A stretch of DNA of 64,000 nt. Origin: Tetraselmis striata (Eukaryota; Chlorophyta; Chlorodendrophyceae; Chlorodendrales; Chlorodendraceae). The stretch lies in contig VCJN01000454.1 of the NCBI GenBank assembly GCA_006384855.1, positions 1 to 64,000 of the forward strand. Reading direction: 5' to 3'. The notes under the pieces were generated by a model. It searched no databases and was not told where the DNA came from. It saw only the letters and a list, made by a program, of their open reading frames with translations. This document shows, piece by piece, positions 36,283 to 64,000 of the stretch. The translations under genes were made by a program, and so were the position numbers. The stretch's first letter is position 1, and each line of letters begins with the position of its first letter.

Positions 36283-36702
36283 TCACATTAAACGTTGCAA
36301 CGCACAGGTGGGCGGGCATGGGAGGGAAGGGAAAAGGCAAGGGGTGGGAGGGCGGGCGGCGTGGCGATCCCAGTACGAGCGGTGTTCCCGTAAGTACCAC
36401 CCCCACCGGCCCGCAAAACGTTGTAAACGCTCGCGGACATACGCACCCTGCCCTTGGGTATAATACACATCAAAGCGCACTAGCCCATCCCGCTGCAACA
36501 CACGATCGATCTTCGGAATGGCCGAGGGCCGGCCATTAAACGCCCGACCGACGCGGCTCCAAAAGGCAGGTAGTGGCGACGGGTCCCCCCAACAACACAC
36601 ACGACGCAGGGACGCCCCAGTGCCCTCATCCAGATGCCCAACCGTCCAAGGGCGAACCCCTGTCACTATGACGGCTGCACCCGGTGGCGTGCGGTTGCCC
36701 AT
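36283..36702 (-). CDS. LINE ORF1 (139 codons, unrecognised)
   Basis: First ORF of the LINE, with an in-frame stop upstream of its ATG, so the start is credible. It contains FNGRPSAIPKIDRVLQRDGL and RFDVYYTQGQGAYVRERLQR, a segment resembling an RRM-like/short nucleic-acid-binding fold in other LINE ORF1s, but I cannot assign it firmly. Its last codons overlap the start of ORF2 (ATG at 36,319) in another frame. Confidence 0.55.
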   Translation of the reverse strand: MGNRTPPGAAVIVTGVRPWTVGHLDEGTGASLRRVCCWGDPSPLPAFWSRVGRAFNGRPSAIPKIDRVLQRDGLVRFDVYYTQGQGAYVRERLQRFAGRWGWYLREHRSYWDRHAARPPTPCLFPSLPCPPTCALQRLM

Positions 36703-39854: not shown

Positions 39855-39917
<63 letters not shown>

Positions 39918-42900
39918 TACGGTATATATACATACACACACATATACACATTCAAACATACATGCATGGGGGGAAAAAGATTATCTGGCTTATTCAATGA
40001 GGCCCCTCATCACTCTCTCCCTTTCTCTCTGGCACATAGAAGAATGTTAGCGCTGCAAAACATCCCGGCATCCGGTAAGCAGGCATGGGCCAACAGGCAG
40101 GCGTCAGCTGCCACCAAGTGCCGCCCGGCCTGACCCGGACGCTGTCCACTGCGCAGCAGCAGCGGGATGGCGGCGCGGAGGGCGTCGCGCTACCGTCGGA
40201 TCTACGGGAGCAGCTGGACGGCGTGATGGCGGCGGTGGCGGCAGGGGAGCCGGGCCTGGTGGCGAGGCTGGGCGCTGCGGAGGCGTCTGACGACGTCTTC
40301 TACCAGCTGTGCCAACACGTGCGTACCGATCCTTTTTCCCCGCCACCGCCACCATCTCCCCCACCACACAATACCCACTCGCGTGATGGCTTTCATGGTA
40401 ACCGCTGTGCATTTCTGCTATGATCCTGCCAATACCGGTCCCGGCGCGGTAATAGGAACCTACGTTTAACGTGGAGTCAGAAAATGTCAACCAAAATATT
40501 TTTGACTCAGAAACCGTTCATGTGAAGACGATCCTGCACCGCTTGCGAGAGGTGAAATGTGAAACAAAACTATACCGTAATTGCGGCGAATGTCCGTACA
40601 GGCTGCTAGCAAAGCCAACTTGAGGCGTGTAAGCAGGGCTCGTGTAGCTGCGTCGGCACCTGCAGCAAGAATAAGGATGTCCGTTGGCGCTCTGCCTTTC
40701 AAATCACCATATGCAGACCCCTGTCTCACACGTGGGTTTTATCACGATGTTCCGCGCCGCCCGGAGGCCCAATTGCGGTCGTAAATCTGGCATAGCCATG
40801 AGACCATTGCCTCATTCGAACCCCGAAGGGCCAATGCATCAATAAAGTAAGCCCGGGACCATCGAACCGGGAACCTGCCGTACAAGAGACCTCCGCTCTA
40901 CCGATCGGACAGACAATGAGGCCGCTGCATACCCAAATTAGTATCGCGCCGGCACCTACCTCTTTGCATACCAGCATGCGGATGTTTGTGAGAGTAGCGC
41001 TCATTGATGTGATGGCTTCAAGTGTGGGCCTGTGTAAAAGTTTCCTGTGCCAACAAACGACTGCTTTCGCAAACATAACACGCTTATCAAAGATCTGCCG
41101 CACCCAGATGTAGTGCCGCTCATGTATGGGCAGCATCAAGACTGTGTAGAACCACCCTAGCGTCATGCAGATATCAATTATATATACCACAGGCACAATA
41201 TCAGTACATGACAAGGGTGGTTCTTTCCTAAAATTGGGGTTTTACTCCTCGAAAATGTGGGCAGGTCCCGTTGTGTTGACGGGCGGACAGAGTTTGAGTA
41301 TGGCCCCAGTCTCCCCGGCAAGGCTGCGCATCCTCTGAGCAGCTGGCGGGCGCCACGCCCATGCAGGTGCTCCGCCGCGACGGGAGCACCATTGGTGCGG
41401 CCGCGTGGGTGGCGGGCGCCATCGCTCCCAGGCTCCAGGCCCTGCAGGCCGCAGCGTCCGCGCCGCTGTTGGACGCCCTCTTGGACGCCGGTACGCGATT
41501 GACACTCCTACGATGATGAACCCCCCCCCCCCCCCTTCCCCCCCCGCAGCGACTCATGACTTTCTCCAGCACACACAGACACAGAAACACACACAGACAC
41601 AGACACAGACACACACCGCACTATTAAATCGCGTTCGCATGTCAAAACAACGTTGAATTGTTATGCGCCATCGAGTCTGGATATGCGCGCATTGCATGTG
41701 GTGTTTTCCTATTTTTCAGGGCAAAACAGTTTTGCCTCAACTCCCGCCGGGGGGGGGGGGGGGGGGGGGGGGGTGTCGAGAAAAATCATAAACATTACAT
41801 ATCAACTTCACCCGAAGTGTGGTTATGGGCCGTTCATTATGTAGCCTTATAAACAACGATGTATATGCCATAAATGAATATCTCCGACCTTTCGCCCTTC
41901 AGCCCGGGGGCGGGCGGTGCGCAGGGGGTGACTATGTGCCAGTAGAGCTGCATGTTTACTGCGATGCGGGATATTCTGAGCGCGCTCTGGACGCATTCAT
42001 CATGCTTGATCACCTACCGAATAAACTGATACGGACCTCCGAACTCAGGTAAAGGTCCGAGGCCCTGGTTATTCGTGGCGTAGTGTATGTGGGCGTGTAC
42101 TGCCACATAGCGGACTGACAGTATACATCAGATTAACCACCTGCCTAACTAAAAACACTAACCAGCATTAAACGTACATGATTTGCGCCCCCCGCTCCCC
42201 CCCCCCCCCCAGAATTACTTATTATCAGTATTACTGGAATGGCCGCTGCTTGATATAAAAAATGCAACTAAGGTATACTGCCTGAAAGTATAGTCCAAGA
42301 CATATTTTCGCGCTTCATTATCAAAATTTTAAAGATTGTCGCCCAGCGCGCCATCAAAAACGGTGCTGCCTCTGGTACGGAAAGCACAGCACTGGGGCAC
42401 CTTCACTTTTGATTGGGTTTGGGGGCCAAAACAGCAGTGAGTTGTTTCGCGGCAATGAATCGGAAGATCCCTGTGGTATTCGTTGTGTATTCTGATATAT
42501 TCTCATATTAAAAAGGGTTTTCTCACTTCGCAGGAAACGGCCATATCCCACGATCCCAAAGCATGGTTACGGTGTCCTCTGATTGCCCGCCTTTCTTTTG
42601 GTTCTCCAAGCAAAGCGCGGTTGCAAACGCGCACGTGAGGATCCATCCTGACCCCCATGGGCGACTCCCCTCCCGCTTCCCATGGCGACCCGCGCGGCCC
42701 ACCGCCAGGCCGCAACCACCCGCAGCCGCTGGTGCAGGAGGGGCTGGTGGGCGTGGCTGCGTGCCCCAGCCTGAACGCGCCGCAGTGCGAGGCGCTGCTC
42801 CGGTGAGGACACCCCCTCCTCCTTTCCCCCTCCCCCCCCGGCCCCCTTGGTCTCCCCCTCCCCCACAACCGACCCACCTCCGAGACAATAGCGCAAACAG

Positions 42901-44997
42901 CCCCAGCAACGCATATCCTTACAGTCTCCTCGACACCATCGACACCCACACACCTCAGGCTCCGACGCCGTCTCCAGGCACCTGCCTCCCCTTGCCGCTT
43001 GGCTGCCGCCCTCTGCCCCCCTCTCTTCCGGGATCCGTCCTGCTGTGCTGGGAAAGATGCCGCGATTGTCGTATTTTTTTCCGGTGACGGCAAGCGCAGA
43101 GTGCGGATGATAGTGTGCTCAGTGTGCGGATGATGGCCGGCAGGGTGGCGCGGGGGGCGCTGCCGCCGGCGCACCGCGGCGCGCTGCTGGCGGGGGCGCT
43201 GCTCGCGATGGAAACCTGGGCCGAGCCGCGCGCCGGCGAGCACAGCGTGGTGCTGCTGCAGGTAGCCGCCAGCCACTGCCCTTCTTTGGCGTTTACATCG
43301 CCGCGCTTGGCGGTAACCAATTCGCCCGTACTCAGGCGCATCAGCAAGCTGGGCGCCGGCACAGTAGGCTGCGATAGCTGGGTACAGGGCGAAAGTGCCA
43401 CGGGGCTGCCAGGCAAGGGGGGTGATAGACCCCAGAAAGTGCTGCAAGATGTGGGGTGATGCGCGCCTTACACAGACTCATTTTAGCCAGCGAGTAGGGG
43501 ACGAGGATGGCGAGAGCCGCGCGCAACTGGGTGGTGCTTACATCGCCGCGCTTGGCGGTGACCAATTCGCCCGTACTCAGGCGCATCAGCAAGCTGGGCG
43601 CCGGCACAGTAGGCTGCGATAGGTGCAGGGTGAAAGTGCCACGGTTCTGCCAGGCAAGGGGGGTGATAGACCGCAGAAAGTGTTGTGGGTTGTGGGGTGA
43701 TGCGCGCCTTACACGGACTCATTGTAGCCAGCGAGTAGGGGACAAGGATGGCGAGATCCGCGCGCAGCTGGGTGGTGTTTACAGGGACCGAGGAGCCACA
43801 TCTAGTGGATCCTGGCGCTATGGTGGCGTCCTGTGGTGTGAACGCTTCAGGACGCGTCATCACTGTCGTTTTTGACTCCGTTTTTTTCCGAAATGGGACG
43901 TTTGGTTTACTTTCTTTGATGACGGAGAGTGAGACAGACTCCACCTTGTAGACACAAAGACGCACGTGGTGTGCAGTGGTGGTGAAGAGGCGATATGCTT
44001 CAGTGTTTTCAGAATTAAAACTGTTATGACAGATCGCCACCACCCGATTCTGTAAATATTATTGCTATCGTCGGCACTGGCCATCAGGCCGGGTCGTCCT
44101 CTAGCAGCACGCCGATTGCCAAGGGCGTCGCCGTGGAGAGTCAGACAGAAGCCAAAACGTCAGCCTCGTCATTGTAAGGCAATACATAATATATGCCGCA
44201 TACTGTCAATTACGAACAACGATAAGTATCGAGCACACATATTTATATAATAGTAACTACGGTCCCTAACGGCGCTAGGATATAGTAATTAATATCCGAG
44301 CAGGCACCCGTACGCGTACTAGTACCGCACTGAGGTACGCCTGTACCTACGAGTACTACTATCTCATTCGCGCGGCGTTCGCGCGCCTTCGCCGTACCCG
44401 GTGTATGCCCGTATAGAATAGGACAGAATTCTTCGGTCCCGCGATACTCATACAATATCATGCCATCTTACACACTAGAAGAACTGTCACAGAGAGGGCC
44501 ACGTGTGTTCTCTCATGCTTAAGAAACAAAAGGCATGTGTCACCTTCACGCTCCGATATAACAAATATCGACGTCTACTCGAGCAGGCCGGGCATGCCAA
44601 AACCAGTCAATGATGCGCCCATGCGGACCCAATTTTGTAGGGCAGGTTATATTTGCGCATGGTGCGAGACGGCGAGTATATTTGCATGTCCACTCAGTGC
44701 GGCTGACCGCGCTGCAGTTGCTGAGCGCGGCGGCTGTGTCGGGCCATGCAGGGCCTGCTGGGCGACAAGCCCCCGCCGGTGTTGGGCGAGGAGGGCGCCG
44801 CGGCGCTGGCGCACTTCTTCCTGCGCGAGGCAGCCGGTGGCCTGGGGCGGTCGCCCAAGTTCGTCAAGTGCCTGTCCACGGCGGTGGTGGCGCTGGGCGG
44901 GGCGCTGCGGCCACACAAGGCGGCGCTGCGCCGCGCGGCAGAGGCCACCGCCACCTTCCTCACCAAGGGAGCGCTTCAGAAGATAGACAAGCTTTGA
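38196..44997 (+). CDS. FANCE: Fanconi anaemia core-complex subunit E-like protein (seven exons)
   Basis: FANCE links the Fanconi core ubiquitin ligase to FANCD2 in interstrand-crosslink repair in the nucleus. Proposed exons: 38,196-38,660; 39,099-39,371; 40,157-40,318; 41,343-41,490; 42,709-42,802; 43,144-43,261; 44,752-44,997. GT-AG junctions agree in phase throughout and give ~501 residues; human FANCE is 536. The N-terminal helical block (LPFRLQVNLLLLLLEQARYF, then SSWTAALLADLLRELG) parallels the human N-terminal region in position and pattern. A basic patch (AAKRQRS) lies in a low-complexity linker. The C-terminal ARM/HEAT-like domain runs from LPSDLREQLDGVMA through AAWVAGAIAPRLQAL and PSLNAPQCEALLR to the terminal RRAAEATATFLTKGALQKID, matching the family's characteristic 'NTTFLrKsLkaALkhL' end. 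The first exon may be preceded by another. The assignment is from remembered patterns. Confidence 0.75.
39006..39023 (+). repeat. Poly-C run in FANCE intron 1
   Basis: A pure C run about 75 bp upstream of the exon 2 acceptor. Confidence 0.9.
39571..39727 (-). repeat. MITE-like family A, copy in FANCE intron 2
   Basis: Order GCGACTCACCTGTAAGAACC, TTGGCTTGCATGCAGCCTAT, CTGACCTCTGGCAGGCAGGG, CAGCATCGGCACTCGT. It is collinear with the copies in the FTO introns. Confidence 0.65.
39858..39914 (+). repeat. (TC)n microsatellite
   Basis: Almost uninterrupted CT/TC dinucleotides in FANCE intron 2; a shorter (TC)n lies at 39,490-39,511. Confidence 0.95.
40780..40862 (-). pseudogene. Fragment of the 15-kb/52-kb mobile-element protein family
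   Basis: On the minus strand, ALALRGSNEAMVSWLCQIYD-like sequence matches 52,216-52,300 (DALALRGSDEAMVYGLCQTY). DNA identity is visible over GACCATTGCCTCAT(C/T)CGAAC and CCCCGAAGGGC(T/C)AATGCATC. It lies in FANCE intron 3. Confidence 0.6.
41749..41773 (+). repeat. Poly-G run in FANCE intron 4
   Basis: A 25-nt G run. A 15-nt poly-C run lies in the same intron at about 41,521-41,535 just after the donor, giving potentially complementary C and G tracts in one intron. Confidence 0.9.
42425..42585 (+). repeat. Dispersed repeat family B, copy 2 (FANCE intron)
   Basis: Shares CGCGGCAATGAATCGGAAGA, TATTCGTTGTGTATTCTGAT and CCCAAAGCATGGTTACGGTG with the 28.8-kb and 58.5-kb copies, in the same order. 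Confidence 0.6.
43291..43780 (+). repeat. Two-unit tandem repeat (~241-245 bp) in FANCE intron 6
   Basis: Unit 1 at about 43,291-43,535 and unit 2 at 43,536-43,776, followed by the beginning of a third (GGTGTTTACA). Landmarks repeated: CATCGCCGCGCTTGGCGGT, CGTACTCAGGCGCATCAGCA, GGCACAGTAGGCTGCGATAG. On the minus strand the units keep long open frames (for example APSLLMRLSTGELVTAKRGD), so they may derive from a coding sequence or simply be GC-rich by chance. Confidence 0.8.
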
Positions 44998-44999
44998 CC

Positions 45000-45900
45000 T
45001 GCTGGGTGCCTCGTGCCTCTGTGCATGCTCTGCACTCAAGGGAAGCGCGCACCGCACCGCACCTGCTTGGATTGGCGGTGGCCGGGCGCTGTGAGCTGTA
45101 CACACAGTCCTACACGCGAGTCTTTGCGTCCACGTGGGGTTCCGCACGCTGATCGATGACGAAATTTCGAACATTCGAAATACACCTCATTGAAAATATA
45201 GCGCAATGGTGGCCTAAGGGTGTGCGGGAGATTGAAGGAGGAGGGGTGCTTCATGTGCCACTATACCTGCCGCACACCCACCCTAATGTGACTCACCTGA
45301 TATAATGTAGTATAATGTGGTTTAGGTCACAGTTTCACTGAGAATTGGATGGGGGTCTTTATGTACGTCAAATACTTGACATAGTGCTTAGCGCTCTGTA
45401 CATGCCATTGGCCACTATATGGTGCCAATTGTCACTGTCAGAATCCCTACCCACGAAGTTGTCACGGGAAACCAATCAGCGGTGCACCTCTTGCCTCTAA
45501 ATTAGCGCGCGTCAGGAAGTTCCACCTGCGTCATCGCCGTTGGACGGGAGCATCAGCCCCTCAGAAAGCGCTGGAGAGGTGGAATCGGTGCACTAAATCG
45601 GATCAGTAAGTCCCACTATTCAATGCTGCGCAACCTGCTCCACGGCGCCCTTTCGTAAATATGCAAGGCACTCCCACATTCATTGATTGGCGCATGCGTG
45701 GGAGCGTGAGTGCATTCACAGTGTATAAGGAGACTGCGAGCGCGAGAGCGAAGGAATAGATGAGAAGCGCATTCGTATCACAATTGCTGTATTCAAATGG
45801 ACAATACTTACAGCGCGGAGCCAACAGCCGCAACATTGGGGATACCTACTGATGGCAATAACTCGGCAGGGCGTATATGTGTGGCGATAATATCCACTGT
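45000..45900. other. Spacer 3' of FANCE
   Basis: About 0.9 kb without a supportable gene. It includes a local repeat TATAATGTAGTATAATGTGG at about 45,302. Confidence 0.35.
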
Positions 45901-46099
45901 GCTAGTTTATAATTGTCGCGACTGGCTTTCATACTGTCTTATGAGCCTCTCACTCAACTACGCCCAGCTCCTCTAGCAGCGCCACATGCTCCTCGCTCAG
46001 ATATTATTGCCCTCTGTGGCTGCCCGTTGCGTGCCGACCCAATCCCACCCCCATCTCGTAGGTTTTCCGCATGTCGCATGGGCACCCGGCACTTGCCCT

Positions 46100-47065
46100 G
46101 CTCATGTCGATGGTATGCCACCACCGGCGCGTACTTGTCATGTCAGCTGGCCTCATGCATGTTGGGCGCTGCAAGTATTGCAGTTATTAAGAGTGTCCAG
46201 AAGGACCCGCGTTGGACCTTGTATACAGAGCTGCTACTTGCCACAGTGATGCCTCAATACGTCGATGCGCTATCAGAGCCGGACCTTGTTTACATAGTTG
46301 CTACTTGCCACAGTAGCGGTGCGGTATATACGTCGGTGCGCTATCAGAGCTGGAGCGAGGCGAGGGCTTTAGGGTTTCCTGGCTTCCTGGCTATCCGTCT
46401 GTTGGGGGTAATAGTACAGCTTGCGCACCCGGCGGGTGTGACGACGGGTGATCCGTTTGTGAACAAGTTCGTCCTGTTTGTGGCGTGGCTGCGGTTCCAG
46501 GGGGCTTAAAGCCACTGCCGCAACGTCGGGCTACAGGTCCTGCAGAGCCTGCGCCACAAAGCTGACCGGGTGGACTCCCGCCTGGATGTGTCAGACAGCT
46601 TGCTCTTCAGTCGGCCAGAATTCCGGGTGGCGTTTGAGTCCTGGGAGGGAAATCGAACGAACGAATTGGATCCCCGGCGCGTTGGGAGTGGTGATCACGG
46701 TGAGAGCCACAGCGGTTCTGCGGACGCGATAATAATTGGCGCTACGTGTCACGAGTATTTTGGACCATTTGGCCCAATATATCCGGTGCACTTGTGCGAA
46801 TATTGCATCTATGACCACTGCTGTGGAAATCCTCCTGCATGAAGGAGGCATTTGCCCACCGCTATGCCAGGGCTTGAGGCGGCGAGTATAGCCACGTGGT
46901 TGGAGTTGGGCTGAAACTGTGCGCGTGTGTGGTGCGTATGTGTGCGTGTGCGTGCATGCGTGTGTGTGCGTGTGGGTGCGCGTGTGGGAGTGGGTGTGGC
47001 TGTGGCTGTGGCTGTGGCTGTGGCTGTGGCTGTGGCTGTGGCTGTGGCTGTGGCTGTGGCTGTGG

Positions 47066-49599: not shown

Positions 49600-50700
49600 C
49601 GCGAGCCATGAGATGGACGCAGACTGTTGCCATACCGTGAGCAATCTGAAAGAGCGAGCGGTGTTTTCACTAGGATCGGTAAATGTGAACGGTTGCTTGT
49701 AGACTAGGTTTGCATTCGGGATGGCGATCCTTGGAAATTAACTAACATACAGTTGGATATATATCGTAGTAGTTGGCCTTGCTAGCGCGGTCTTATAATG
49801 AGGGTGGCGGCGTCCAGAATAATCATTAGGCGGCGCATGTAAAAACAGACGTACAGTTCTCGCCCCCCGCCCCCCCCCCTCTCACACAGCCCAAAGGTAC
49901 CTGCTTGCCTAGCCAATGGTGTCTGTGCTTGAGGTTAGTTGATATGCGTCAATATGTAGTCGCTGACTATTTTGCTCTCTTTTCCCTGACACTTTTTCGC
50001 TCACAGTTTAGCTGACTACTGATGATGGTAGGATTGCAATCCTTTCTGGCAAACTCCGGTTACAAGTATTACCGCGACGACCCGTGGTGAGAGTTACGTT
50101 TAGTTAGTTCACTGATTGGTTTACATCCTGGAGGGTTGCCGTAGACATGGTTCGGAAGAAATGGTACCCGTATGGTAGTAGTCGAAGCCGCATTTAATAA
50201 TCCGATACAGTCGCTATGGCTGCGTCATCAAGCAAGTTGCCGAAGCATTTTATTTTTAATATTTCCTCCGGATTCCACGTCCAATGCAATTGTACTTGTA
50301 GTAGTAAGGCCATTCCGACAAAGTGACCTGGTTTAGGTCAGTATCATCCGTGGAAACGGACGGGGGGAGGGGTTGTTTTGTAAATTGCGATTTTTTGTAA
50401 TTAGTACTTTAAGCAGTATCCAGCCTTCCAGCGCACCCTGTGCTCCTCCCGTCTGTCCTTATCATGCGCCGCCGCCGCTGCTGCCACCGTGCTCGCCCGC
50501 ATGCAAACCTAGCTACCTTTCAACTGCATGTTACCGATTGACGACCGCTCCTCATCACACTACCCGCGCCCGCCACCAACCTCTATATATGGTGGCCGCT
50601 AACTCTCACATACTCGCGCCTGCGCGCCACAATGGCGTCATCGTCAGGACCAGTTCTTATGCACATGCTCTACGCCCTTGCCTGAGGATCCCCCCTTTCG
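49600..50700. other. Unassigned region upstream of the 50.7-kb gene
   Basis: A short LINE-tail scrap (GTCATCAAGCAAGTTGCCGA, about 50,225-50,250) is recognisable. The rest shows no supportable gene. CTCTATATATGG at about 50,581 is TATA-like and lies ~150 bp before the next ORF. Confidence 0.35.
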
Positions 50701-50728
50701 CGACACCTTTGTTTGTGATGATGCCTCG

Positions 50729-51204
50729 ACATGCGAGTCCGAGTGGAGTGGGAGTACTACATCGCCAACCAAAAGAAGTCGGTGGCGTGGTTCACCAGGA
50801 CATGTGCGTGCACTGTGATGGACAACTTGGAGCCGGACGGCGCCACAAAGACATGCATGACGTCTATCACGTCGTGCTGCCCATCCGCGAGGTAGGTACA
50901 GCCTGCCCTTCTTGTTCCCGCTGGCTGCAACTGTATTGTGTGTCACTGACAAATGTTGTCTTACATCGCGCAGGCATGCGGACTCAAGGCAGATGGGCTG
51001 AAGCACATCGTACGCAGGATCAAGCCCAACGGCCAGAAAAAGCTCAAAAACCTGGACAAGCAGCTAGCCAAGCAAGCATTGGAGCGCATGCGAGGGGGGC
51101 ACCCGCAACAGGGAGCGACAGCCCCAACGGCGTCAGCGTCGGCGTCGGCGGCATCAGCCGCCACCGCGGCTGCGACTGCGGAGGCGGCCACTGAAGGCGC
51201 TTAG
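50729..51204 (+). CDS. Unrecognised spliced gene, 3' exons
   Basis: The last exon (50,974-51,204) reads ACGLKADGLKHIVRRIKPNG, then QKKLKNLDKQLAKQALERMR and an Ala/Thr/Ser-rich tail, ending at a TAG. It joins in phase through a GT-AG intron (50,892-50,973) to an exon ending HDVYHVVLPIRE. Upstream, VEWEYYIANQKKSVAWFTRT and MDNLEPDGATK look coding by third-position GC but lie in a different frame. This needs either a ~47-nt intron (donor near 50,797, acceptor near 50,844) or a 1-nt error. The helical Lys-rich C-terminus could bind nucleic acid or protein, but I do not recognise the family. Further 5' exons were not found. Confidence 0.45.
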
Positions 51205-51559
51205 TACTATTGTATCGTTTGCCAATGCCAGCCGTAGACATTGTAGCACATGTAAAGGGCAGGACAGGGCTGGGGACCATGCACTCTGCTGGTGCAAACC
51301 AGTGTGCACAATGTTCACTCAAGGCTGCCATGTGATACACTTGCAACATTTTCATGAACATCACCATCATTGTTTGGCTACTGCATTGCACACAAGATGC
51401 ATGTTTATCATATTGTGGTCTCTCAATCTCCGCGCCACCGCCACCGCGCTACCGGATTCACTTGCCAATGCGGTTTGTGGAAAGAACGGCCCGGATTTAT
51501 TAGCGAACTACTATACTGGTAAGAGTAATAGGCATGTTTTGATGTCTTGCCGCCGGCCT

Positions 51560-52062
51560 TCTGCTGCTCCGAAACCAATTATAGCACTGAAATCGCACGG
51601 CAACGCCAAGACGCTGCCCAATATGGTGGCTCTTCCAGCTCAAATCATGATGGCATAGTGGACTATATATAGCCAGCACATGGTATGGTTTGCAGCTCGA
51701 AACGTGGCGATTGCTACCCGAGTATATATTTGCTGCCGCTCCGTACAGCACAGTGTTTACCGCACAATATGGCAGTGTATGTATACCACCAACCCTCAAG
51801 TGCGCATAATCTGTTCTCGCGCTGGGGATCGCTAGACTATGTATATGACTACATATCAGCACATACAAACAGTTGGGGGGGGGGGGGGGGGGGGAGGAGG
51901 AGGGGGGGAGGTAGGGACCCCCACACACGGAATGCTCGCCGGGAACAACGCAGCTCCAAATAATGCTCCGGAACCGGTGCTGAAACCGTCGCCGCAACGC
52001 CCGGATGCTGCTCAATATGGTGGCTATTCCAGCTCAAATCATGATGGCATAGTGGACTACAT
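51560..52062 (+). repeat. Direct repeat pair of ~100 bp
   Basis: 51,560-51,664 and 51,955-52,062 share GCTCCG(A/G)AACC, GCAACGCC, GCTGC(C/T)CAATATGGTGGCT and CCAGCTCAAATCATGATGGC followed by ATAGTGGACTA. A poly-G run (51,876-51,893) lies between them. Confidence 0.75.
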
Positions 52063-52317
52063 ACACAACACTCCCCGCGGTAACCCGTACGACATTTCGC
52101 GATCCGAATACGGTACGAATAATCTGTCCGACGGGATCATTTTGTCGGAATGGCCTAACGTAAAGTAAGGTAAAGTTCGCCCCGGGACATCGGCCGAAGC
52201 CGCCTCAGCACTTAACCTCTTACGCCAACAGCAGTCGTAGGTCTGGCATAGCCCGTAGACCATTGCCTCATCCGAACCCCGAAGGGCTAATGCATCAACC
52301 GGGGAAACCCAGGACAC
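52057..52317 (-). pseudogene. Fragment of the 15-kb mobile-element protein family
   Basis: An 86-codon frame containing DALALRGSDEAMVYGLCQTY and VPYSDREMSYGLPRGVL. The latter matches 15,710-15,655 (VPYSDREMSYMLPREVL) and the former matches 40,780-40,862. It shows that the two motifs belong to one protein, in this order. Function not recognised. Confidence 0.55.
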
Positions 52318-52319
52318 GC

Positions 52320-54240
52320 CGGGACCTGTACCTGTAGTAGTGTTTATATTTTTCTTGGGTTTTAATCAATTACATCTGATACCGGGCAGTCCGACAGGAC
52401 CGGTGTCTATTTAGCGACTGATACCCGCGTGTTGCGGCTAGCTCATGTAGTAACTTAATTAATATTATACCGGCACTGCGGCCATATATACGGCCAAGAC
52501 CCTACGGACGGGCAGTATGCAGTCACTTGCCGCAAGTCCTGGTCCGGGCGGGGCGGGGCGGGAAAATCGATATGGTCTGCCCGTATCGTATCCGCACCGG
52601 GGCGGATAGCGACTACAGTCTTTGCACGTGTTCTTCGCGAAGAACCTCCGACAGTACCTAGACCCAGTCGGCCCAATTAGGGCCCGGCGGTGTACTGTCG
52701 CAGGGCCCGGCGGACGACACCACGCGCGCTCCGCCGGCCTGCTGGTACCCGGTACCCGTACTTCGAGTCTGTCGTGCCTTACCCCCCGCCGCGCCCCGCT
52801 GCGGCCCTGCGGCCCTGCCTGCCGCCCGTACTACACCCCTGCACATAAGTTTGGGGTCCCTTTTCGGCAGTCTCAAGACTTCAGAAGTCTACCTGAACGT
52901 AGGCTACCTGAACGTAGGGTATATTAGGTGAAACCCTGGAATCTTAGAGGGCTTTATAAAACCTGCATGGCGGGTGGCTCAAACCGAAGCTTAAAGACCT
53001 TTGACTAGGGTGTCACGCTGCACTTGGTGCGTGCGTGGATGGGCGTCGCCTGTAACTGCACCAAAACCAAGGTCGGTATCACGCACACGCCGACGCCGTG
53101 AATAGACAACCAAACGGCGGGATGGCCATGCATAAACGCGTGAAGAAACACATTGGCGAGGGGCTCGGGTGCATTTGGTTGGGGTGCAGCCGTGTGGGCG
53201 GCGGCTAGTACATGTCGCGTTGCGATAATGGCATGGCATCCGTGTCGGCCACGCTCAGCAACACCCCCTTGGCTTTAAAACGCTATCACTTCTCAGGGTT
53301 TGCTCAGAAAAAATGTTTTGAAAATACCACGCAATTGCTCGTTTAAACCTGCGTCGATAGCAATCTTCCAAAATATAAAATTCGATTTTTGGAGGCCCTG
53401 GAAAAATCCCCAAAGATGATTATCCAGGTTTCCCCTCACTTCCTCATGTGCCCAGCCACCCATGACGGGCGCGTGGCTTTGCGCCAAGTGCGTGTCTAAG
53501 CCCTATACTCGGCTGTGCGAAAGCGTTATGTGTGTGGATGACCACCGACCACCAACACTTGGCATGTGCCGCCTCCCAGCGATACACACATCTATAAGTC
53601 AAAATGCAATTTTCGACAGCATTTTTCAAGGAATTTCATATTAATTGGAGTCCACGCCCCTATCGCGCCACCCCGCCCACGAACTGGTGCAACTGGCATT
53701 CCACCACGCGCCCCCATAGTAGAGCATCGCCCCACGCCAAGGGGGCCATCGAGCGCCTCTCCTACGTGCGTTCGCCACAGAAACAACAGCATTTCACCCC
53801 AAAAATGCCCCCCCACAGTGGCCAACTTGTCGTTGGGGTGTCACGTCGTGCCTATAGCGACATGCTTTCAATCTGTGACCTACACGCACGGTGTGCGCAA
53901 CTTATGCCAAGGGCCGTATTCACCGAGTTTGGTACGACGAGTGCCGCTATTTCCATAGGTTTGGACGGTTGGCGCAACCCACAATTTTCTAGCGCCAACG
54001 CATCATGCACTGATTTCTCGTTTTTTAAAGGGCGCCCACAAATGGCCGTGTTGTCGCGCGGGTGGGTATAAAGCGCACAATAGGCGTTTGCCCGAACTAT
54101 TCCCACTGTAGTTAGCATCTATGCACATGCAGCCGGCGTTATCCTCGCCCATGCATGCGCTTTGCAATCGAAAATACAAAACGGACAATACAATACAATA
54201 CACCCGGACTTATGTGGAAGGGTGTAGTAGTAATTACTTT
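52320..54240. other. Repeat-rich region with possible transposon relic
   Basis: Includes a 16-bp perfect palindrome GTTCTTCGCGAAGAAC (about 52,629-52,644) and a direct repeat CTACCTGAACGTAGG (52,889-52,916). Protein-like segments occur on both strands between 52,990 and 54,070, such as the minus-strand SNFIFWKIAIDAGLNEQLRG (about 53,385) and the plus-strand SIGLDGWRNPQF (about 53,948). The latter weakly resembles the DGW motif of hAT-type transposases. No intact gene. Confidence 0.3.
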
Positions 54241-54773
54241 GCCCTCGCCCGATGACCCTACTCGTCTATCTACGCCACCCCGTCTTTCCACACCAGCACA
54301 CCTTCATTAATAATAGCCCTCGACCCTCTCCGAGCTTCATCATAGTAGTTACATATGAACTATCTGCAAAAGGCGATCAGGAAACCTCCCGAAAAGGCAA
54401 TAGAAAACGTCCACTGCAGCAATTGCGCGGTGGAAGACCTGTACGCCTATCAATACATAAGTCGCGCGCATCAGTCGCGGTGTCGCCTCCGGCTCACTGA
54501 TGGGGGCGGCTGCGCCGCGCAGCATCCTGCGCTGGTTACTGCGGCGGGGCCGGCCTGGGGCTGAAGAAGACGCGCATCCAGGCCCCGCACCTGGTTGACG
54601 ACGGAGACTTCTCATCGATACCATCATTATTCCTCCCCTGCTACCTTCGAGCTTTGTACTCTTTGCAAAGATACGGGCGCACCAGCGCATAGTCTGCGTG
54701 GCATCCTTGCATCCGACCCCGTCGCCACTCCCCCCCCTTCCAGGCCTACGGAGCGAAGACCGACCAGGAAGTG

Positions 54774-56544
54774 ATGCCGCCGGCGCCGAGCTCCAACTGG
54801 GCGGCGCTGCGGCAACGGCTCAGAGGAGGTGGGCCAGCCGTGGCGGGTGCTGGTGGCGAGACTGTGGCTGATGGTGCCGGCGGCAGGAAGAAAAAGGTGA
54901 AGTCGAAGCCAACGCGGGGCAAGGCCGATGCGGGCAGGGCAGGGCGGAATACGCAGCTGAAGGGGCACACCGGCCGCGAGGCGCACCCGGGCGCGGTGGG
55001 CGGCAGCCGGCCTGCCGGTGGCAGCTTGGCGCAGCGTCCGACCCTGAAGAAGCCATGCACTGTTGGTAGAAAGGTGAGGGGCGCCGTGCCGCGTCGTGTT
55101 GCATGTGGGGCGTCGAGTCGGCAACTCATCCGCGAAGTGGAGCACGCGTGAGCCGATGCCTCGCGAAAAAAAAAACACGTGCCTGGTTGCTACTTGAGTC
55201 GCCACCGCTGCAGCAACCAAGTGGCGGTGCTCCTCTCCCTGGGCGCGGGGGGGGAGGGGGGGGGGGAGAGGGCACCCACTGAGCTACCCGTGCTGAATCG
55301 ACGCAGGCGGGAGACGGCGGCAGCGCAGGGACGGTGGAGGGCGACCGGCCAGGCTTTCGGCCAGGGGGAGCCGGCCGGAAGCGCCGTCAGGCGGCGGATG
55401 GCGAGAATGTGGGTCGCGTTGCTCGTTGCCCCCGTTCTTGTTAGGGACTCCTCCCTCCCCCACGCCATTCCACTTCCCTGCCCCAACACCAACGCAGACG
55501 AGGCTGCTGGCACATAGCGCACCACACCCATCTCCCAGACAAGTGCCGAGGCACATAGAGGCATGCCAGTGGGGCCGTTCGCACCTGCTTCCACACCTCC
55601 CCCTCCAGTCGTCACTGCCCTGGCCGCGCCTCTTCCTCGCCGCCTGACCCCATGCACCATTTCACCTTTCCATTCGTAGGAGGCCGGCAGCAGGTCGGTG
55701 CCAGCCGTGGCAGGAGAGGGCAAGCGCAGCAAGAAGAAGCGGAAGCTGCGGGTGCTGGAGGGGGGCAGAGGCGGGGTTGGGGAGGGGCGCAGGCCGCCGG
55801 CTGAAGGCACAGGCGGTACAGGGGGGCAGGGGCAGGGGCAGGGCAAGACTGCCCCGCCGCAGGGCTTCCCAGCGGGCCCGCCAGGGCGGTCCGCCTCGGG
55901 TCCACCGGCGCCCTTCCCGCACCCGACCCGCATGGCGGTGCTCACGCCCGCCTCGCCAGCCTTTGCCGCCGCGCGCGCTGCCTGCTACGCCGGTTTTGAG
56001 CACGACGGGGCGGACGCTTTCCCGGAGGCGCTGCATGCGGAGACAGAGCGCGCGCTGGCGGCGATGTCTGCGGCCGGGCTGTTCCACTACGACATTGTGT
56101 CCGCCGGCAAGGCCGTGTCCTCCACCTTTTGCGAGCGCACACTGCTTGGCAACGCCGGCATGACGTACCACTACCAGCGGCTCCGCATCTTCGCCTACCC
56201 CTGGGGTGCGGGACAGCCCCCCTCTCCCCACCTATCCTTATCATCACCCCCATCCTCTGCCACTTCCAGCGGAGGGGAGGCGTGGAAGGATCAACGAGGT
56301 TTGCCAATGCCAACCCCGATGCTGATGCTTCTGGTAATCCCAATGCCCTCCCCGACTCCATGCAGAGGACAAGCACACTGAGCCCGGAAGCCCCTTCCGC
56401 GCCCTGCGCCGCCTGAACGAGGCGATGGTGGTGCGGACCAATACGCTGCTCGACCAGCAGAGCGGGCTCATCCACCGGTGCGCTGACGCCGAGCACAAAC
56501 ATGCACGGCACAGGCAGATAGAAGGAGAGAGAGAGAGCGCATGA

Positions 56545-56587
<43 letters not shown>

Positions 56588-59300
56588 TTCAAAGCCAAGG
56601 GCGCCACCGCACCTCTAACCACTCGTTAGAGTGGTGTAAGCCTCGAATGTGGCTTGCACGCAACCTATAAGAGCATCCGCTATACTTTCGCGTTGGTGTT
56701 GCCTTCGCATGACCTCTGGCAGCGTGGGCAGGTTCTCATCTGTAGCGTTCTTATTACCGCATCAGCACCCGGATCGAGAGATACCTTGCTGCTCTTTGTT
56801 CCTCGGGAACCTTACCAAGAGCATTGCTGACTTTGCTGTTATTACGAGATGCATTGCGATATGATGCTGGAGCAGTCATTTTTCTCAGTGAATGCGCTCC
56901 ATTTGGCCACTGTAGTGAGTGAGAGGGGGCTAGCTCTCATTGTATACAGCCATTGCCCCAGTTTTGGGACTGTCTGTGCATAATGCGAGGTACATTCGCC
57001 GGCTTTGAAGTATCCCTCTGCAATTCCGTACTTCCTTGGACACGTGTATCAGGGACAGACTGTGCTTCGATCCTTTTCTTTGAGTGCTTCATTGTGCAAT
57101 TATGTTGTGCCCACTGACACCCTCCTGGCGGATGGGGCGCGACAGGGGGCGCGCAGACTACAACATCACGCTCATCAACAAGATGGCCGCCCCCGCAGAC
57201 TGCGCCGTGCCGCTAAAGGATGAGGCGCTGTACGGCATGGGCCCCACCAGCGTGTCGTGGCATGCCGACTCGAGCCTGGAGGACTGGAGCAGCATTGCTG
57301 TGTGGCAGACCACGGATAATGCCCCCGACGCCACAGACTGGTACGGGGAATGCGAATGCCCCATGGCCTTCCCCATTTGGACAGTCCTCACCTCCCTCCG
57401 TCTCTGGGGTCTGGACATGTGCGTGTACATCAGTACGGGTGCCGACACGGTAATAAGAACACTGCGAATAGGAACCCGCCCTAACTGCCGGAGATCAAAT
57501 GCAGAAAACACTGATACAGAGGGCTGAAAACACGACTGAAACGAGTGTTGTTAATTGGTTGCATGCAAGCCCAGTTTGAAGCTTATAGTAAATAAGGGTT
57601 CTTATAGTTGGGGTGGCACCCGTAAATACAAATCAATACGGGTGCCAACGCGGAACTCGGAACACTGCGAATAAGAACCTGCCCCACCTGTCAGAGAACA
57701 AATGTAGACTAAACCATAGAGGAATTGCAGCAAATGTTCTTATTGGTTGCATGCAAGCCAAATTCGAGGCTTATAATGAGGCCTCTTCTAGGTGAGTCGG
57801 CACCTGTACTTAGACTCGCAGTGTTATTATGCCATGATCATTTGAGTGCGGGCAGTCAACACGATATCAATGAGGAGTGCGTCACTGTTGTCCACGAAGC
57901 TCCGGTGTGATATCAAGCCCCGATTCTGGTATTTGCTTGTAGTCATCTGCAAGCCAGCAGTGTCGCACATCTGCCGGTGCATATGTTGCTCATCTTTTGC
58001 ATACTGTGTGTGTGTGTGTGTTTTGGGGGGAGGGGGCATTTATCATCAAGGCAAGAATGCATTCTGAGGCTAAGGGGGCCGACATCTTATTAACAACACT
58101 GCAAATAAGAACCCTCCCTGTCTGCCAGAGGTCAAAGTGGACGAAATTTTAGCGGAACTGCGGCGAATGTTCTTGTCGGTCCGAATTCGAGGTTTATAAG
58201 ACGGGTACCTATGGCTGCGTCGGCGCCGGTGTGCGGCATCTTCACAACACAACTGAGTGCATTATTATCGCAGGTGCGTCCAGAGATGCATGTAAGCCTC
58301 CCGTGCTGCGCCACGCGAGGTTGAGCTGATACTGCTGTATACACGTGTGGGCACGATCGGCTACCGCATGCCCACCGTTGCTCACCTTATATGGCATACC
58401 ACTGGCATAAGTAAGTGTTATTTCACGACACAAAACTCCGGTGGATGTGCCCTCTGACTTGGCGCCCACTATATGTTCGTGTGCCCCGCACCATATTGAT
58501 TTCTGCCTGCGGGCCCAAACCGTAATGACATGAACCGCGGCATCAGATTTCCGTTCATCGGCTTTTGTGGCATATTCTAATACATATCCATACGATTATA
58601 TACCTCCTCTTTTCCCTATGGGGTCGAACACATTACTCCCCAAACCCAAAGCGTGGTGACAGTAGCCGTGGTGTGCATCGCCAGCGTTGACATTGAGATA
58701 TTTGGCAGATAGGGGGGGGGGGGGGGGATTATTGGCAACATAGACAAAGGGTATATGACCGAATCCCATGGCGCATGCTGTGTGCCGGCATCAGCGCTGC
58801 ATGTTTCACGTCTGACTTGCATCGACTGTTCGCTCCTTGTGCATGCCCTCCGTCTGCCCTACCCAGGCACGTGGCGGTGCGGGTGGCACATGACGAGGCA
58901 ACCCCCGCGCTGCGCGTGCCGCTGCGAACGCGCGAGACGTACTACATGCTGGGCGACTTCAACCACCACCACCACCACGCGGTGCTGGCGGGCGCGTCAG
59001 ACCGCTACAGCAGCACGCACCGCGTGGCCGTGACGGGCCGGGACACGTGGGGCTACATCAAGGCGCGCTGCCAGGCCGCGCTGGGCGTGGTGGCGGCTGC
59101 GGGCGGGCCGGTGGTGGCCGCGGACGGGTTGCGGGCGGTGGGGGAGGCGCTGCTGGAGGTGGAGCTGCAGTGGCTGCGCATGTTCTGGATGCAGGGCGCG
59201 CGCCACGCGGACTCGCACGACGCCTTCTGGCTGCCGCGCATGCACAAGCTGCGGCGGTGGTGGGGCCAGCTGGAGGACAGCCGCCAGCGCTCTCTGCAGG
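54774..59300 (+). CDS. FTO: FTO-like 2-oxoglutarate/Fe(II) RNA/DNA demethylase, left palindrome arm
   Basis: FTO oxidatively demethylates N6-methyladenine-type bases. Exons: 54,774-55,073; 55,680-56,205; 56,366-56,477; 57,146-57,340; 58,867-~59,300, all in phase with GT-AG junctions. After a Lys/Arg/Gly-rich N-terminus (~200 residues, including RSKKKRKLRV) come GLFHYDIVSAGKAVSS, LLGNAGMTYHYQRLRIFAYP, ALRRLNEAMVVRTNTLL, ADYNITLINKM, VSWHAD (Fe ligands ~H352/D354), DWHVAVRVAHDEATPALRVP, and HHAVLAGASDRYSSTHRV (Fe ligand ~H415; 2OG Arg ~R424; R430), with the 9- and 6-residue spacings of human H307/R316/R322. The FTO-specific C-terminal helices follow (VELQWLRMFWMQGARH, LRRWWGQLEDSRQRSL). The frame then runs into a poly-C tract, and ~70-80 residues of the C-terminal domain are not found. 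An in-frame extension upstream (54,744) suggests a further 5' exon. Confidence 0.85.
56549..56585 (+). repeat. (GT)n microsatellite in FTO intron 3
   Basis: About 18 GT units, mirrored as (CA)n at 62,366-62,402 in the right arm. Confidence 0.95.
56630..56780 (-). repeat. MITE-like family A in FTO intron 3
   Basis: GCCTCGAATGTGGCTTGCAC, GCATGACCTCTGGCAGCGTG, GCAGGTTCTCATCTGTAGCG, ATCAGCACCCGG: collinear with other copies. Mirrored at about 62,171-62,321. Confidence 0.65.
57435..57623 (+). mobile_element. MITE-like family A, copy with terminal inverted repeats
   Basis: 189 bp, starting ACGGGTGCC and ending GGCACCCGT (perfect 9-bp terminal inverted repeats), in FTO intron 4. Internal words: GGTAATAAGAACACTGCGAA, TAATTGGTTGCATGCAAGCC. 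No coding capacity; a flanking duplication was not resolved. Mirrored at about 61,327-61,515. Confidence 0.7.
57638..57807 (+). mobile_element. MITE-like family A, second copy with terminal inverted repeats
   Basis: 170 bp, starting ACGGGTGCC and ending GGCACCTGT (one mismatch between ends). It follows the previous copy after 14 bp. Words GCGAATAAGAACCTGCCCCA and TTATTGGTTGCATGCAAGCC match the family. Mirrored at about 61,142-61,311. Confidence 0.7.
58070..58245 (+). repeat. MITE-like family A, third copy in FTO intron 4
   Basis: Begins GGCCGACATCTTATTAACAA and includes AATAAGAACCCTCCCTGTCT, CCAGAGGTCAAAGTGGAC and ATTCGAGGTTTATAAGACGG, ending GCGTCGGCGCC. The ends are diverged relative to the TIR copies. 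Confidence 0.6.
58520..58665 (+). repeat. Dispersed repeat family B, copy 3 (FTO intron 4)
   Basis: GGCATATTCTAATACATATC, CCTCTTTTCCCTATGGGG and ACCCAAAGCGTGGTGACAGT match the order of the 28.8- and 42.5-kb copies. Mirrored at about 60,284-60,429. Confidence 0.55.
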
Positions 59301-59316
59301 CACCCGCCCCCGCCCC

Positions 59317-59634
59317 CCCCCCCCCCCCCCCCCCCCGGCCCACCCCCCCGGTATATACAGTCGGCTGATGTATATTTGCCCTACATTTGTCAACTCTCAC
59401 AGCTTCGGCTATCCAGCTTCTTCCAGCGCTTCGGGTAGCGTTTCTGGGTAGTGACGGTATGTCCCTTGTAGCAATGTGCTAGCAATGTTTAAAATTACGA
59501 TCATTCACGAACCCACTATATCATGAAAACCAATATTCAACAAAAATATCAAGAATCCAAATTGAGTAGGCATGCACATGGTGTGCCAGTAGGTAGGTGG
59601 GCACCGGGAAAACAAAATAGGGGGGAGGGGGGGG
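59317..59634. other. Spacer (loop) of the inverted repeat
   Basis: About 320 bp of unique sequence between the arms, bordered by the poly-C run (59,316-59,336) and the G-rich run (59,621-59,640). No ORF continuing the FTO C-terminal domain was found on either side. Confidence 0.8.
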
Positions 59635-62363
59635 GGGCGGGGGCGGTGCCTGCAGAGAGCGCTGGCGGCTGTCCTCCAGCTGGCCCCACCACCGCCGCAG
59701 CTTGTGCATGCGCGGCAGCCAGAAGGCGTCGTGCGAGTCCGCGTGGCGCGCGCCCTGCATCCAGAACATGCGCAGCCACTGCAGCTCCACCTCCAGCAGC
59801 GCCTCCCCCACCGCCCGCAACCCGTCCGCGGCCACCACCGGCCCGCCCGCAGCCGCCACCACGCCCAGCGCGGCCTGGCAGCGCGCCTTGATGTAGCCCC
59901 ACGTGTCCCGGCCCGTCACGGCCACGCGGTGCGTGCTGCTGTAGCGGTCTGACGCGCCCGCCAGCACCGCGTGGTGGTGGTGGTGGTTGAAGTCGCCCAG
60001 CATGTAGTACGTCTCGCGCGTTCGCAGCGGCACGCGCAGCGCGGGGGTTGCCTCGTCATGTGCCACCCGCACCGCCACGTGCCTGGGTAGGGCAGACGGA
60101 GGGCATGCACAAGGAGCGAACAGTCGATGCAAGTCAGACGTGAAACATGCAGCGCTGATGCCGGCACACAGCATGCGCCATGGGATTCGGTCATATACCC
60201 TTTGTCTATGTTGCCAATAATCCCCCCCCCCCCCCCCTATCTGCCAAATATCTCAATGTCAACGCTGGCGATGCACACCACGGCTACTGTCACCACGCTT
60301 TGGGTTTGGGGAGTAATGTGTTCGACCCCATAGGGAAAAGAGGAGGTATATAATCGTATGGATATGTATTAGAATATGCCACAAAAGCCGATGAACGGAA
60401 ATCTGATGCCGCGGTTCATGTCATTACGGTTTGGGCCCGCAGGCAGAAATCAATATGGTGCGGGGCACACGAACATATAGTGGGCGCCAAGTCAGAGGGC
60501 ACATCCACCGGAGTTTTGTGTCGTGAAATAACACTTACTTATGCCAGTGGTATGCCATATAAGGTGAGCAACGGTGGGCATGCGGTAGCCGATCGTGCCC
60601 ACACGTGTATACAGCAGTATCAGCTCAACCTCGCGTGGCGCAGCACGGGAGGCTTACATGCATCTCTGGACGCACCTGCGATAATAATGCACTCAGTTGT
60701 GTTGTGAAGATGCCGCACACCGGCGCCGACGCAGCCATAGGTACCCGTCTTATAAACCTCGAATTCGGACCGACAAGAACATTCGCCGCAGTTCCGCTAA
60801 AATTTCGTCCACTTTGACCTCTGGCAGACAGGGAGGGTTCTTATTTGCAGTGTTGTTAATAAGATGTCGGCCCCCTTAGCCTCAGAATGCATTCTTGCCT
60901 TGATGATAAATGCCCCCTCCCCCCAAAACACACACACACACACAGTATGCAAAAGATGAGCAACATATGCACCGGCAGATGTGCGACACTGCTGGCTTGC
61001 AGATGACTACAAGCAAATACCAGAATCGGGGCTTGATATCACACCGGAGCTTCGTGGACAACAGTGACGCACTCCTCATTGATATCGTGTTGACTGCCCG
61101 CACTCAAATGATCATGGCATAATAACACTGCGAGTCTAAGTACAGGTGCCGACTCACCTAGAAGAGGCCTCATTATAAGCCTCGAATTTGGCTTGCATGC
61201 AACCAATAAGAACATTTGCTGCAATTCCTCTATGGTTTAGTCTACATTTGTTCTCTGACAGGTGGGGCAGGTTCTTATTCGCAGTGTTCCGAGTTCCGCG
61301 TTGGCACCCGTATTGATTTGTATTTACGGGTGCCACCCCAACTATAAGAACCCTTATTTACTATAAGCTTCAAACTGGGCTTGCATGCAACCAATTAACA
61401 ACACTCGTTTCAGTCGTGTTTTTCAGCCCTCTGTATCAGTGTTTTCTGCATTTGATCTCCGGCAGTTAGGGCGGGTTCCTATTCGCAGTGTTCTTATTAC
61501 CGTGTCGGCACCCGTACTGATGTACACGCACATGTCCAGACCCCAGAGACGGAGGGAGGTGAGGACTGTCCAAATGGGGAAGGCCATGGGGCATTCGCAT
61601 TCCCCGTACCAGTCTGTGGCGTCGGGGGCATTATCCGTGGTCTGCCACACAGCAATGCTGCTCCAGTCCTCCAGGCTCGAGTCGGCATGCCACGACACGC
61701 TGGTGGGGCCCATGCCGTACAGCGCCTCATCCTTTAGCGGCACGGCGCAGTCTGCGGGGGCGGCCATCTTGTTGATGAGCGTGATGTTGTAGTCTGCGCG
61801 CCCCCTGTCGCGCCCCATCCGCCAGGAGGGTGTCAGTGGGCACAACATAATTGCACAATGAAGCACTCAAAGAAAAGGATCGAAGCACAGTCTGTCCCTG
61901 ATACACGTGTCCAAGGAAGTACGGAATTGCAGAGGGATACTTCAAAGCCGGCGAATGTACCTCGCATTATGCACAGACAGTCCCAAAACTGGGGGCAATG
62001 GCTGTATACAATGAGAGCTAGCCCCCTCTCACTCACTACAGTGGCCAAATGGAGCGCATTCACTGAGAAAAATGACTGCTCCAGCATCATATCGCAATGC
62101 ATCTCGTAATAACAGCAAAGTCAGCAATGCTCTTGGTAAGGTTCCCGAGGAACAAAGAGCAGCAAGGTATCTCTCGATCCGGGTGCTGATGCGGTAATAA
62201 GAACGCTACAGATGAGAACCTGCCCACGCTGCCAGAGGTCATGCGAAGGCAACACCAACGCGAAAGTATAGCGGATGCTCTTATAGGTTGCGTGCAAGCC
62301 ACATTCGAGGCTTACACCACTCTAACGAGTGGTTAGAGGTGCGGTGGCGCCCTTGGCTTTGAA

Positions 62364-62406
<43 letters not shown>

Positions 62407-64000
62407 TCATGCGCTCTCTCTCTCTCCTTCTATCTGCCTGTGCCGTGCATGTTTGTGCTCGGCGTCAGCGCACCGGTGGATGAGCCCGCTCTGCTGGTCG
62501 AGCAGCGTATTGGTCCGCACCACCATCGCCTCGTTCAGGCGGCGCAGGGCGCGGAAGGGGCTTCCGGGCTCAGTGTGCTGTCCTCTGCATGGAGTCGGGG
62601 AGGGCATTGGGATTACCAGAAGCATCAGCATCGGGGTTGGCATTGGCAAACCTCGTTGATCCTTCCACGCCTCCCCTCCGCTGGAAGTGGCAGAGGATGG
62701 GGGTGATGATAAGGATAGGTGGGGAGAGGGGGGCTGTCCCGCACCCCAGGGGTAGGCGAAGATGCGGAGCCGCTGGTAGTGGTACGTCATGCCGGCGTTG
62801 CCAAGCAGTGTGCGCTCGCAAAAGGTGGAGGACACGGCCTTGCCGGCGGACACAATGTCGTAGTGGAACAGCCCGGCCGCAGACATCGCCGCCAGCGCGC
62901 GCTCTGTCTCCGCATGCAGCGCCTCCGGGAAAGCGTCCGCCCCGTCGTGCTCAAAACCGGCGTAGCAGGCAGCGCGCGCGGCGGCAAAGGCTGGCGAGGC
63001 GGGCGTGAGCACCGCCATGCGGGTCGGGTGCGGGAAGGGCGCCGGTGGACCCGAGGCGGACCGCCCTGGCGGGCCCGCTGGGAAGCCCTGCGGCGGGGCA
63101 GTCTTGCCCTGCCCCTGCCCCTGCCCCCCTGTACCGCCTGTGCCTTCAGCCGGCGGCCTGCGCCCCTCCCCAACCCCGCCTCTGCCCCCCTCCAGCACCC
63201 GCAGCTTCCGCTTCTTCTTGCTGCGCTTGCCCTCTCCTGCCACGGCTGGCACCGACCTGCTGCCGGCCTCCTACGAATGGAAAGGTGAAATGGTGCATGG
63301 GGTCAGGCGGCGAGGAAGAGGCGCGGCCAGGGCAGTGACGACTGGAGGGGGAGGTGTGGAAGCAGGTGCGAACGGCCCCACTGGCATGCCTCTATGTGCC
63401 TCGGCACTTGTCTGGGAGATGGGTGTGGTGCGCTATGTGCCAGCAGCCTCGTCTGCGTTGGTGTTGGGGCAGGGAAGTGGAATGGCGTGGGGGAGGGAGG
63501 AGTCCCTAACAAGAACGGGGGCAACGAGCAACGCGACCCACATTCTCGCCATCCGCCGCCTGACGGCGCTTCCGGCCGGCTCCCCCTGGCCGAAAGCCTG
63601 GCCGGTCGCCCTCCACCGTCCCTGCGCTGCCGCCGTCTCCCGCCTGCGTCGATTCAGCACGGGTAGCTCAGTGGGTGCCCTCTCCCCCCCCCCCTCCCCC
63701 CCCCGCGCCCAGGGAGAGGAGCACCGCCACTTGGTTGCTGCAGCGGTGGCGACTCAAGTAGCAACCAGGCACGTGTTTTTTTTTTCGCGAGGCATCGGCT
63801 CACGCGTGCTCCACTTCGCGGATGAGTTGCCGACTCGACGCCCCACATGCAACACGACGCGGCACGGCGCCCCTCACCTTTCTACCAACAGTGCATGGCT
63901 TCTTCAGGGTCGGACGCTGCGCCAAGCTGCCACCGGCAGGCCGGCTGCCGCCCACCGCGCCCGGGTGCGCCTCGCGGCCGGTGTGCCCCTTCAGCTGCGT
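59635..64000 (-). repeat. Right arm of the inverted repeat (continues beyond window)
   Basis: Reverse complement of 54,951-59,316. It has at least one single-base deletion relative to the left arm (at about 62,578, in FTO exon 3), at least two single-base insertions (an extra G at about 61,990; an extra T at about 61,422), and length differences in G/C runs. Confidence 0.97.
59649..64000 (-). pseudogene. FTO: FTO-like gene, right arm; exon 3 carries a 1-nt deletion; 5' end outside window
   Basis: Mirror of the left-arm gene. Exons (minus): 63,878 to beyond 64,000; 63,270-62,745; 62,584-62,474; 61,804-61,610; 60,082-~59,649. Splice sites and catalytic motifs are the same as in the left copy. 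Exon 3 is 111 nt instead of 112 because one A is missing (GAGGACAGCACAC versus GAGGACAAGCACAC). Joined with the same splice sites the frame shifts before the catalytic HxD exon, so this copy would not give a functional enzyme unless the difference is a sequencing error. The C-terminal end fuses into different loop sequence after the homopolymer. Confidence 0.75.

Follow-up and report, generated by a model that had tools for sequence, protein, structure and literature searches.

An inverted repeat with FTO-like gene pieces at the end of a Tetraselmis striata contig: most likely a fold-back artefact seeded by a poly-C/poly-G pair

Introduction

FTO occurs in vertebrates and in marine algae. A genome that seems to carry two mirrored copies of an FTO-like gene raises the question whether the duplication belongs to the alga or to the assembly. 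Such a configuration occurs at the right-hand side of the stretch of DNA analysed here (the window), which comprises the first 64,000 bases of a single contig (VCJN01000454.1; C357 in the following) of the 224-Mb, 2,903-contig assembly of Tetraselmis striata. An initial annotation of the window interpreted the structure either as a palindromic duplication or as a fold-back artefact, leaning slightly towards biology. In what follows, we trace the two arms of the palindrome, its loop and its junction to a second, unmirrored version of the same locus, and weigh the possible origins of the structure against each other.

Results and discussion

The inverted repeat extends to the last base of its contig

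Within the window, positions 54,951-59,330 align with the minus strand of positions 64,000-59,620 over 4,383 columns at 99.863% identity, with one mismatch and five gap openings. The near-perfect inverted repeat of more than 4.3 kb described initially is, indeed, present in the sequence, yet it is larger than noted, as the window edge clips it. On the complete contig, BLAST aligns 52,137-59,330 with 66,821-59,620 (7,210 columns, 99.626% identity, three mismatches and 24 gap openings), i.e. 7.2 kb per arm, and this match is too long and too identical to be due to chance. Position 66,821 is the last base of C357; the right arm runs to exactly that base and has no far flank. The spacer between the arms measures 290 nt, instead of the approximately 320 bp originally given for the loop. 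When a segment of the arm (55,000-56,000) was used as a query, the only matches in the genome were the two arms and one other contig, C682. The parts of the structure are as follows.

52137..59330, plus strand: left arm, contiguous with the 52 kb of unique sequence in C357 and, from about 54,346 on, collinear with C682 119,561-124,543
59313..59336, plus strand: junction, a run of 24 C in which the poly-C of the arm merges with the reverse complement of a poly-G located 290 bp further along
59331..59619, minus strand: spacer ('loop'), the reverse complement of the next chromosome stretch, within C682 approximately 124,544-124,856
59620..64000 in the window and on to C357:66,821, minus strand: right arm, an inverted copy of the left arm, with all seven indel deviations refereed by C682

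A second contig carries the same locus without the mirror

C682 is 201,079 bp long and contains the same locus in an unmirrored form. Within the part of this contig that was fetched, C357 16,954-59,331 is collinear with C682 81,000-124,543, that is for more than 40 kb. Identity is about 91-98% across the principal blocks and 96.2% in the segment 54,346-59,331, while a pair of short blocks reaches 86% and 72%. We infer that C357 and C682 represent two haplotypes of one locus. Further to the right the direction of the match is reversed, with C357 59,307-64,605 running backwards on C682 from 124,856 to 119,561. The spacer, searched as a query, corresponds to C682 124,511-124,856 on the minus strand with 99% identity; it is hence the continuation of C682 in reverse, and the loop, far from being new DNA, corresponds to the approximately 290 bp of chromosome that follow. 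No inverted repeat was found in C682 121,001-131,000, the 10 kb around the site (L006).

The two contigs differ in other places, too. Approximately 4 kb of C357 (window 50305-54346) is mostly absent from C682, with only 52,327-52,829 aligning, at 72%; this segment is likely an insertion polymorphism between the haplotypes. A comparison of window 39782-46964 with C682 103990-112546 revealed an extra tandem duplication of about 6 kb in C682, apparent as two matches approximately 6.2 kb apart.

The FTO-like gene of C357 is probably one truncated piece seen twice

Pfam searches identified, above the cut-off, the FTO_NTD domain in three pieces of reading frame from the left arm (4.3e-24, 1.7e-19 and 1.2e-22) together with the FTO_CTD domain (1.1e-18, profile positions 1-94 of 170), and phmmer matched two of these three pieces to FTO chains in PDB. 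The FTO-like gene content noted initially is thus borne out, and so is the arrangement claimed for it: the copies point at each other across the spacer, and each ends at a C/G tract. The pieces are located as follows.

55962..56207, plus strand: FTO_NTD piece of the left copy (profile 3-84 of 275), in the frame 55,680-56,378; Pfam
57144..57383, plus strand: FTO_NTD piece of the left copy (profile 144-221 of 275), in the frame 57,084-57,524; Pfam and PDB match
58868..59299, plus strand: end of FTO_NTD (221-274) and start of FTO_CTD (1-94 of 170) of the left copy; Pfam and PDB match
59651..62989, minus strand: inverted counterparts of the three FTO pieces, with coordinates derived from the arm alignment and the scan of the left arm

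The part of the FTO_NTD profile between positions 84 and 144 was not located among the frames listed, all of which are at least 120 aa long. A further FTO_CTD piece, covering profile positions 99-147 of 170, was found in C682 only (E 9.8e-6; 26.0 bits, i.e. slightly below the cut-off of 27). It belongs to the frame L006:3933-4238, with the match at approximately C682 124,990-125,136, and so lies past the break; by its position, there is room for it in neither of the C357 copies, both of which look incomplete. Because this further piece sits past the break and was found in C682 only, the 'two copies' are two views of one truncated piece. A second copy of the FTO gene probably does not exist. 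An annotator would call a convergent two-copy FTO palindrome here, whereas C357 contains, on this evidence, one truncated gene seen twice.

At the junction, poly-C meets the complement of a poly-G run further downstream

In C682, a poly-C tract occurs at the position of the arm end and is followed by a poly-G run of 32 that starts at 124,827, with 290 bp between the two runs. A short inverted repeat capable of forming a hairpin is thus present at the site, and when the C682 region is folded as a single strand, the poly-C pairs with the poly-G (under DNA or, possibly, RNA energy parameters). In C357, both tracts are merged as a single C-run of 24. One snap-back between the C and G tracts suffices to explain the arm, the spacer and the junction all at once. 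The unique loop and the distinct junction sequence had been taken as favouring biology somewhat, but this argument fails: the loop is reversed chromosome continuation, the junction is the poly-C plus the complement of the downstream poly-G, and any snap-back between the two tracts yields this very loop.

Long G/C homopolymers of 10-40 bases are very frequent across the window (e.g. at 12675-12698, 13335-13374 and 41521-41773) as well as in C682. Runs of at least ten G or C number 59 in the 119,330 bp of C357 and C682, i.e. about one per 2 kb. Such runs are enriched at contig ends, as judged from 60 ends of 40 contigs: five ends have one within 30 bp (0.86 expected, binomial p 0.0017), six within 60 bp (1.69 expected, p 0.007), seven within 100 bp (2.81 expected, p 0.02) and 12 within 160 bp (4.48 expected, p 0.0014), the expectations being rough since the control consists of the overlapping C357 and C682 alone. 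This enrichment indicates that the assembly tends to break at G/C tracts.

Opposite C and G tracts no more than 500 bp apart were encountered 12 times in 137,330 bp, some of these cases being two versions of one place, and none of the 12 pairs was folded back, the C682 copy of the junction pair among them. A terminal palindrome was seen at none of eight other contig starts (a small sample of 6 kb each; with starts only, centres within about 6 kb are detectable), so no general flaw of the assembly is shown. Both observations are points against an artefact. Once the seven arm and junction loci had been set aside, 26 loci with a length of 3.9 kb or more remained, and none of them showed an inverted repeat that reached both 300 bp and 98% identity.

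Several other repeats and one further domain came to light along the way. One of the eight contigs whose starts were sampled, C1316 (L055), contains at 4664-5457, about 4.7 kb from the contig start, an interior palindrome of approximately 0.8 kb that is 95% self-complementary and possibly represents a fold-back element. A repeat of about 1.34 kb was found on many contigs, among them C164 (L051, C164:1-6000), C704, C1257, C211 and C1788, with 98-100% identity among the 45 matches listed, and its matched unit of 1,336 bp recurs every 2.68 kb in several arrays. Two dispersed repeats are young and present in high copy number, one of 2 kb (L054:2001-4000, on C884) matching at least 39 other places at 91-99% identity and one of 0.84 kb (L101:1162-2001, on C682) matching at least 38 places at 99%. 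Finally, a frame on the minus strand of the window (35627-36469) bears an Exo_endo_phos domain (3.3e-10) and possibly encodes a retroelement endonuclease or a host protein.

Differences between the arms are concentrated on one side

The differences between the arms had been described as single-base and confined to homopolymers. Nearly all of them are, indeed, single-base indels, but the restriction to homopolymers does not hold, as many, not all, lie in short homopolymers. In the portion of the left arm that can be aligned with C682 (54,346-59,330), all seven single-base indels have the same polarity: each time it is the left arm that matches C682, and the departure is in the right arm (two-sided p = 0.016 against a fair coin). 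A difference at 59,324 was left out of this count, for it falls within the fused C-tract and its alignment is arbitrary; on reading the sequences, it is the right arm that retains the T-interrupted tract of C682 there, whereas automated scoring gave the left arm as C682-like. The outer arm (52,137-54,345) was likewise left out of the three-way counts, C682 not being reliably alignable in this region, and the figures obtained from it are mixed (11 indel columns in which the left arm is like C682, six in which the right arm is, and six substitutions in which neither is).

The differences are also unevenly distributed along the arm. Counted in 1-kb bins from the outer arm end inwards, the 30 aligned differences fall as 19, 3, 2, 1, 2, 1, 0 and 2; the outermost kilobase, which adjoins the contig end, thus accounts for 19 of the 30, six of these 19 being substitutions beside indels and partly alignment effects. 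Judging from the error pattern, the mirror arm carries the excess of consensus errors, as an arm backed by few reads would. The same pattern, albeit weaker, would be expected of a genuine palindrome that exceeds the read length.

The origin of the palindrome

Taken together, the findings identify the structure as a fold-back that started from the opposite poly-C/poly-G pair and most likely, with a probability of roughly 0.85, an artefact that arose in vitro or at the level of reads at the contig end. The fold-back part of the initial interpretation stands, given the source of the loop in C682 and the C/G junction, while its lean towards biology does not; an artefact is favoured by the confinement of the refereed indels to one arm and by the fact that the repeat runs up to the contig's final base. 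The arms, the origin of the spacer, the C/G junction, the contig-end position and the one-sidedness of the indels can be read directly from the sequences, and the course of events that we would propose for them is a reconstruction with respect to its in-vitro setting and the step at which the fold-back occurred. The chromosome provides a natural short inverted repeat, a poly-C followed by a long poly-G 290 bp downstream. At some stage of library preparation, amplification or sequencing, the poly-G end of a strand may have paired with the upstream poly-C and been extended backwards; alternatively, the complementary strand may have been read on after the first strand. The product would be a molecule or read composed of the arm, the C-tract, the spacer, the G-tract and the inverted arm, and the assembler would then have prolonged the haplotype contig C357 along this fold-back read and stopped at the read end. 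Should unamplified PacBio HiFi data turn out to be the source of the assembly, the odds of an artefact would be lower.

The same anatomy could, in principle, have arisen in the living cell, in one haplotype of the sequenced culture, through a break near the poly-G, snapping of the resected end onto the upstream poly-C, copying of the arm and loss of the distal DNA. A real fold-back inversion of this kind is unlikely in our view, although the succession of a short inverted repeat, a loop and an inverted copy is what the model of single-stranded DNA hairpins predicts (PMC7467729). The fate of the DNA beyond the break may be adduced as well: a counterpart from the C357 haplotype was found for none of the four usable C682 stretches (by a best-candidate search that once missed the query's own locus), and one of these four, C682 124,860-127,860, matched nothing else in the assembly apart from short repeats. 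The same outcome is expected if one haplotype had truly lost its distal DNA, but collapse of the haplotypes into C682 past the point where C357 stops explains it equally well. Against an event in vivo stand the seven refereed indels, all of them in the right arm, the rise of differences towards the contig end, the absence of a far flank in a palindrome that ends with its contig, and the fact that C682 is intact and collinear. The spacer of 290 nt is also long compared with the 3-44 nt of the yeast tel1 and sae2 loops, among those listed (PMC7467729). On the other hand, if a real palindrome were longer than the reads, the contig could equally stop partway into the mirror arm and leave the outer arm poorly polished. 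The more far-reaching proposal, namely that poly-C/poly-G snap-back operates in vivo in a genome crowded with long G/C homopolymers, many of them in opposite pairs, and that C357 captures a fresh foldback inversion with terminal loss at FTO in one haplotype, strikes us as quite unlikely.

Palindromes homogenised by gene conversion occur elsewhere, and the high identity of the arms would accord with a palindromic duplication of the FTO-like gene that is older and fixed and whose arms are kept alike in this manner. Such a duplication is nevertheless highly improbable, considering that C682 is devoid of the palindrome, that the query from the arm matches nothing but the two arms and C682, that the last FTO_CTD piece found sits past the break, and that the differences are nearly all single-base indels, with the seven refereed ones all on one side. 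The existence of two diverged versions of the locus might also suggest that the assembler mis-joined two haplotypes, the right arm being the other allele in inverted orientation. We reject this possibility as barely credible: the right arm shares 99.6-99.9% identity with the left one and only about 96% with C682, so both arms come from one haplotype, and the right arm also copies DNA from within the region 50.3-54.3 kb, which is mostly missing from C682. The in-vitro or read-level fold-back remains the favoured reading, and it would illustrate how, where a genome is rich in homopolymers, a C-run and an opposite G-run may give rise to a spurious palindrome at the end of a contig.

Comparison with known fold-back systems

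The foldback inversions of yeast (PMC7467729) share with the C357 structure a short inverted repeat, a hairpin, its extension and an inverted duplication beside a deletion. They were, however, selected and sequenced, and acquired stable ends through secondary rearrangements, whereas the C357 structure is known from a contig and has no far flank.

Palindromes produced by whole-genome amplification, the subject of Pacasus (PMC6218980), are alike in that a polymerase turns back on its own product and in that the resulting inverted repeats harm long-read assemblies. That paper gives a proportion of 40-50% fold-back reads for Arabidopsis PacBio reads after whole-genome amplification, and of 11.8% for an amplified gorilla set versus 0.5% for the unamplified control. 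In our case, a palindrome was seen at none of the eight other contig starts sampled.

Another parallel is offered by the well-documented fold-back artefacts of long-read sequencing. According to the Breakinator paper (PMC12870357), fold-back reads make up about 0.55-0.6% of ONT genomic reads, and none were systematic in three PacBio samples. By the definition quoted there, the inversion in C357 would fall outside the default of 200 bp, its offset being 290 bp; the top repeats of the Breakinator reads are A-runs and AC, in contrast to C/G in C357, and our evidence comes from a contig, not a read. Yet in the K562 samples of that paper, homopolymers and simple repeats are enriched between the two alignments of a fold-back read, and such reads, like the structure described here, join both strands of one locus in what is a single molecule.
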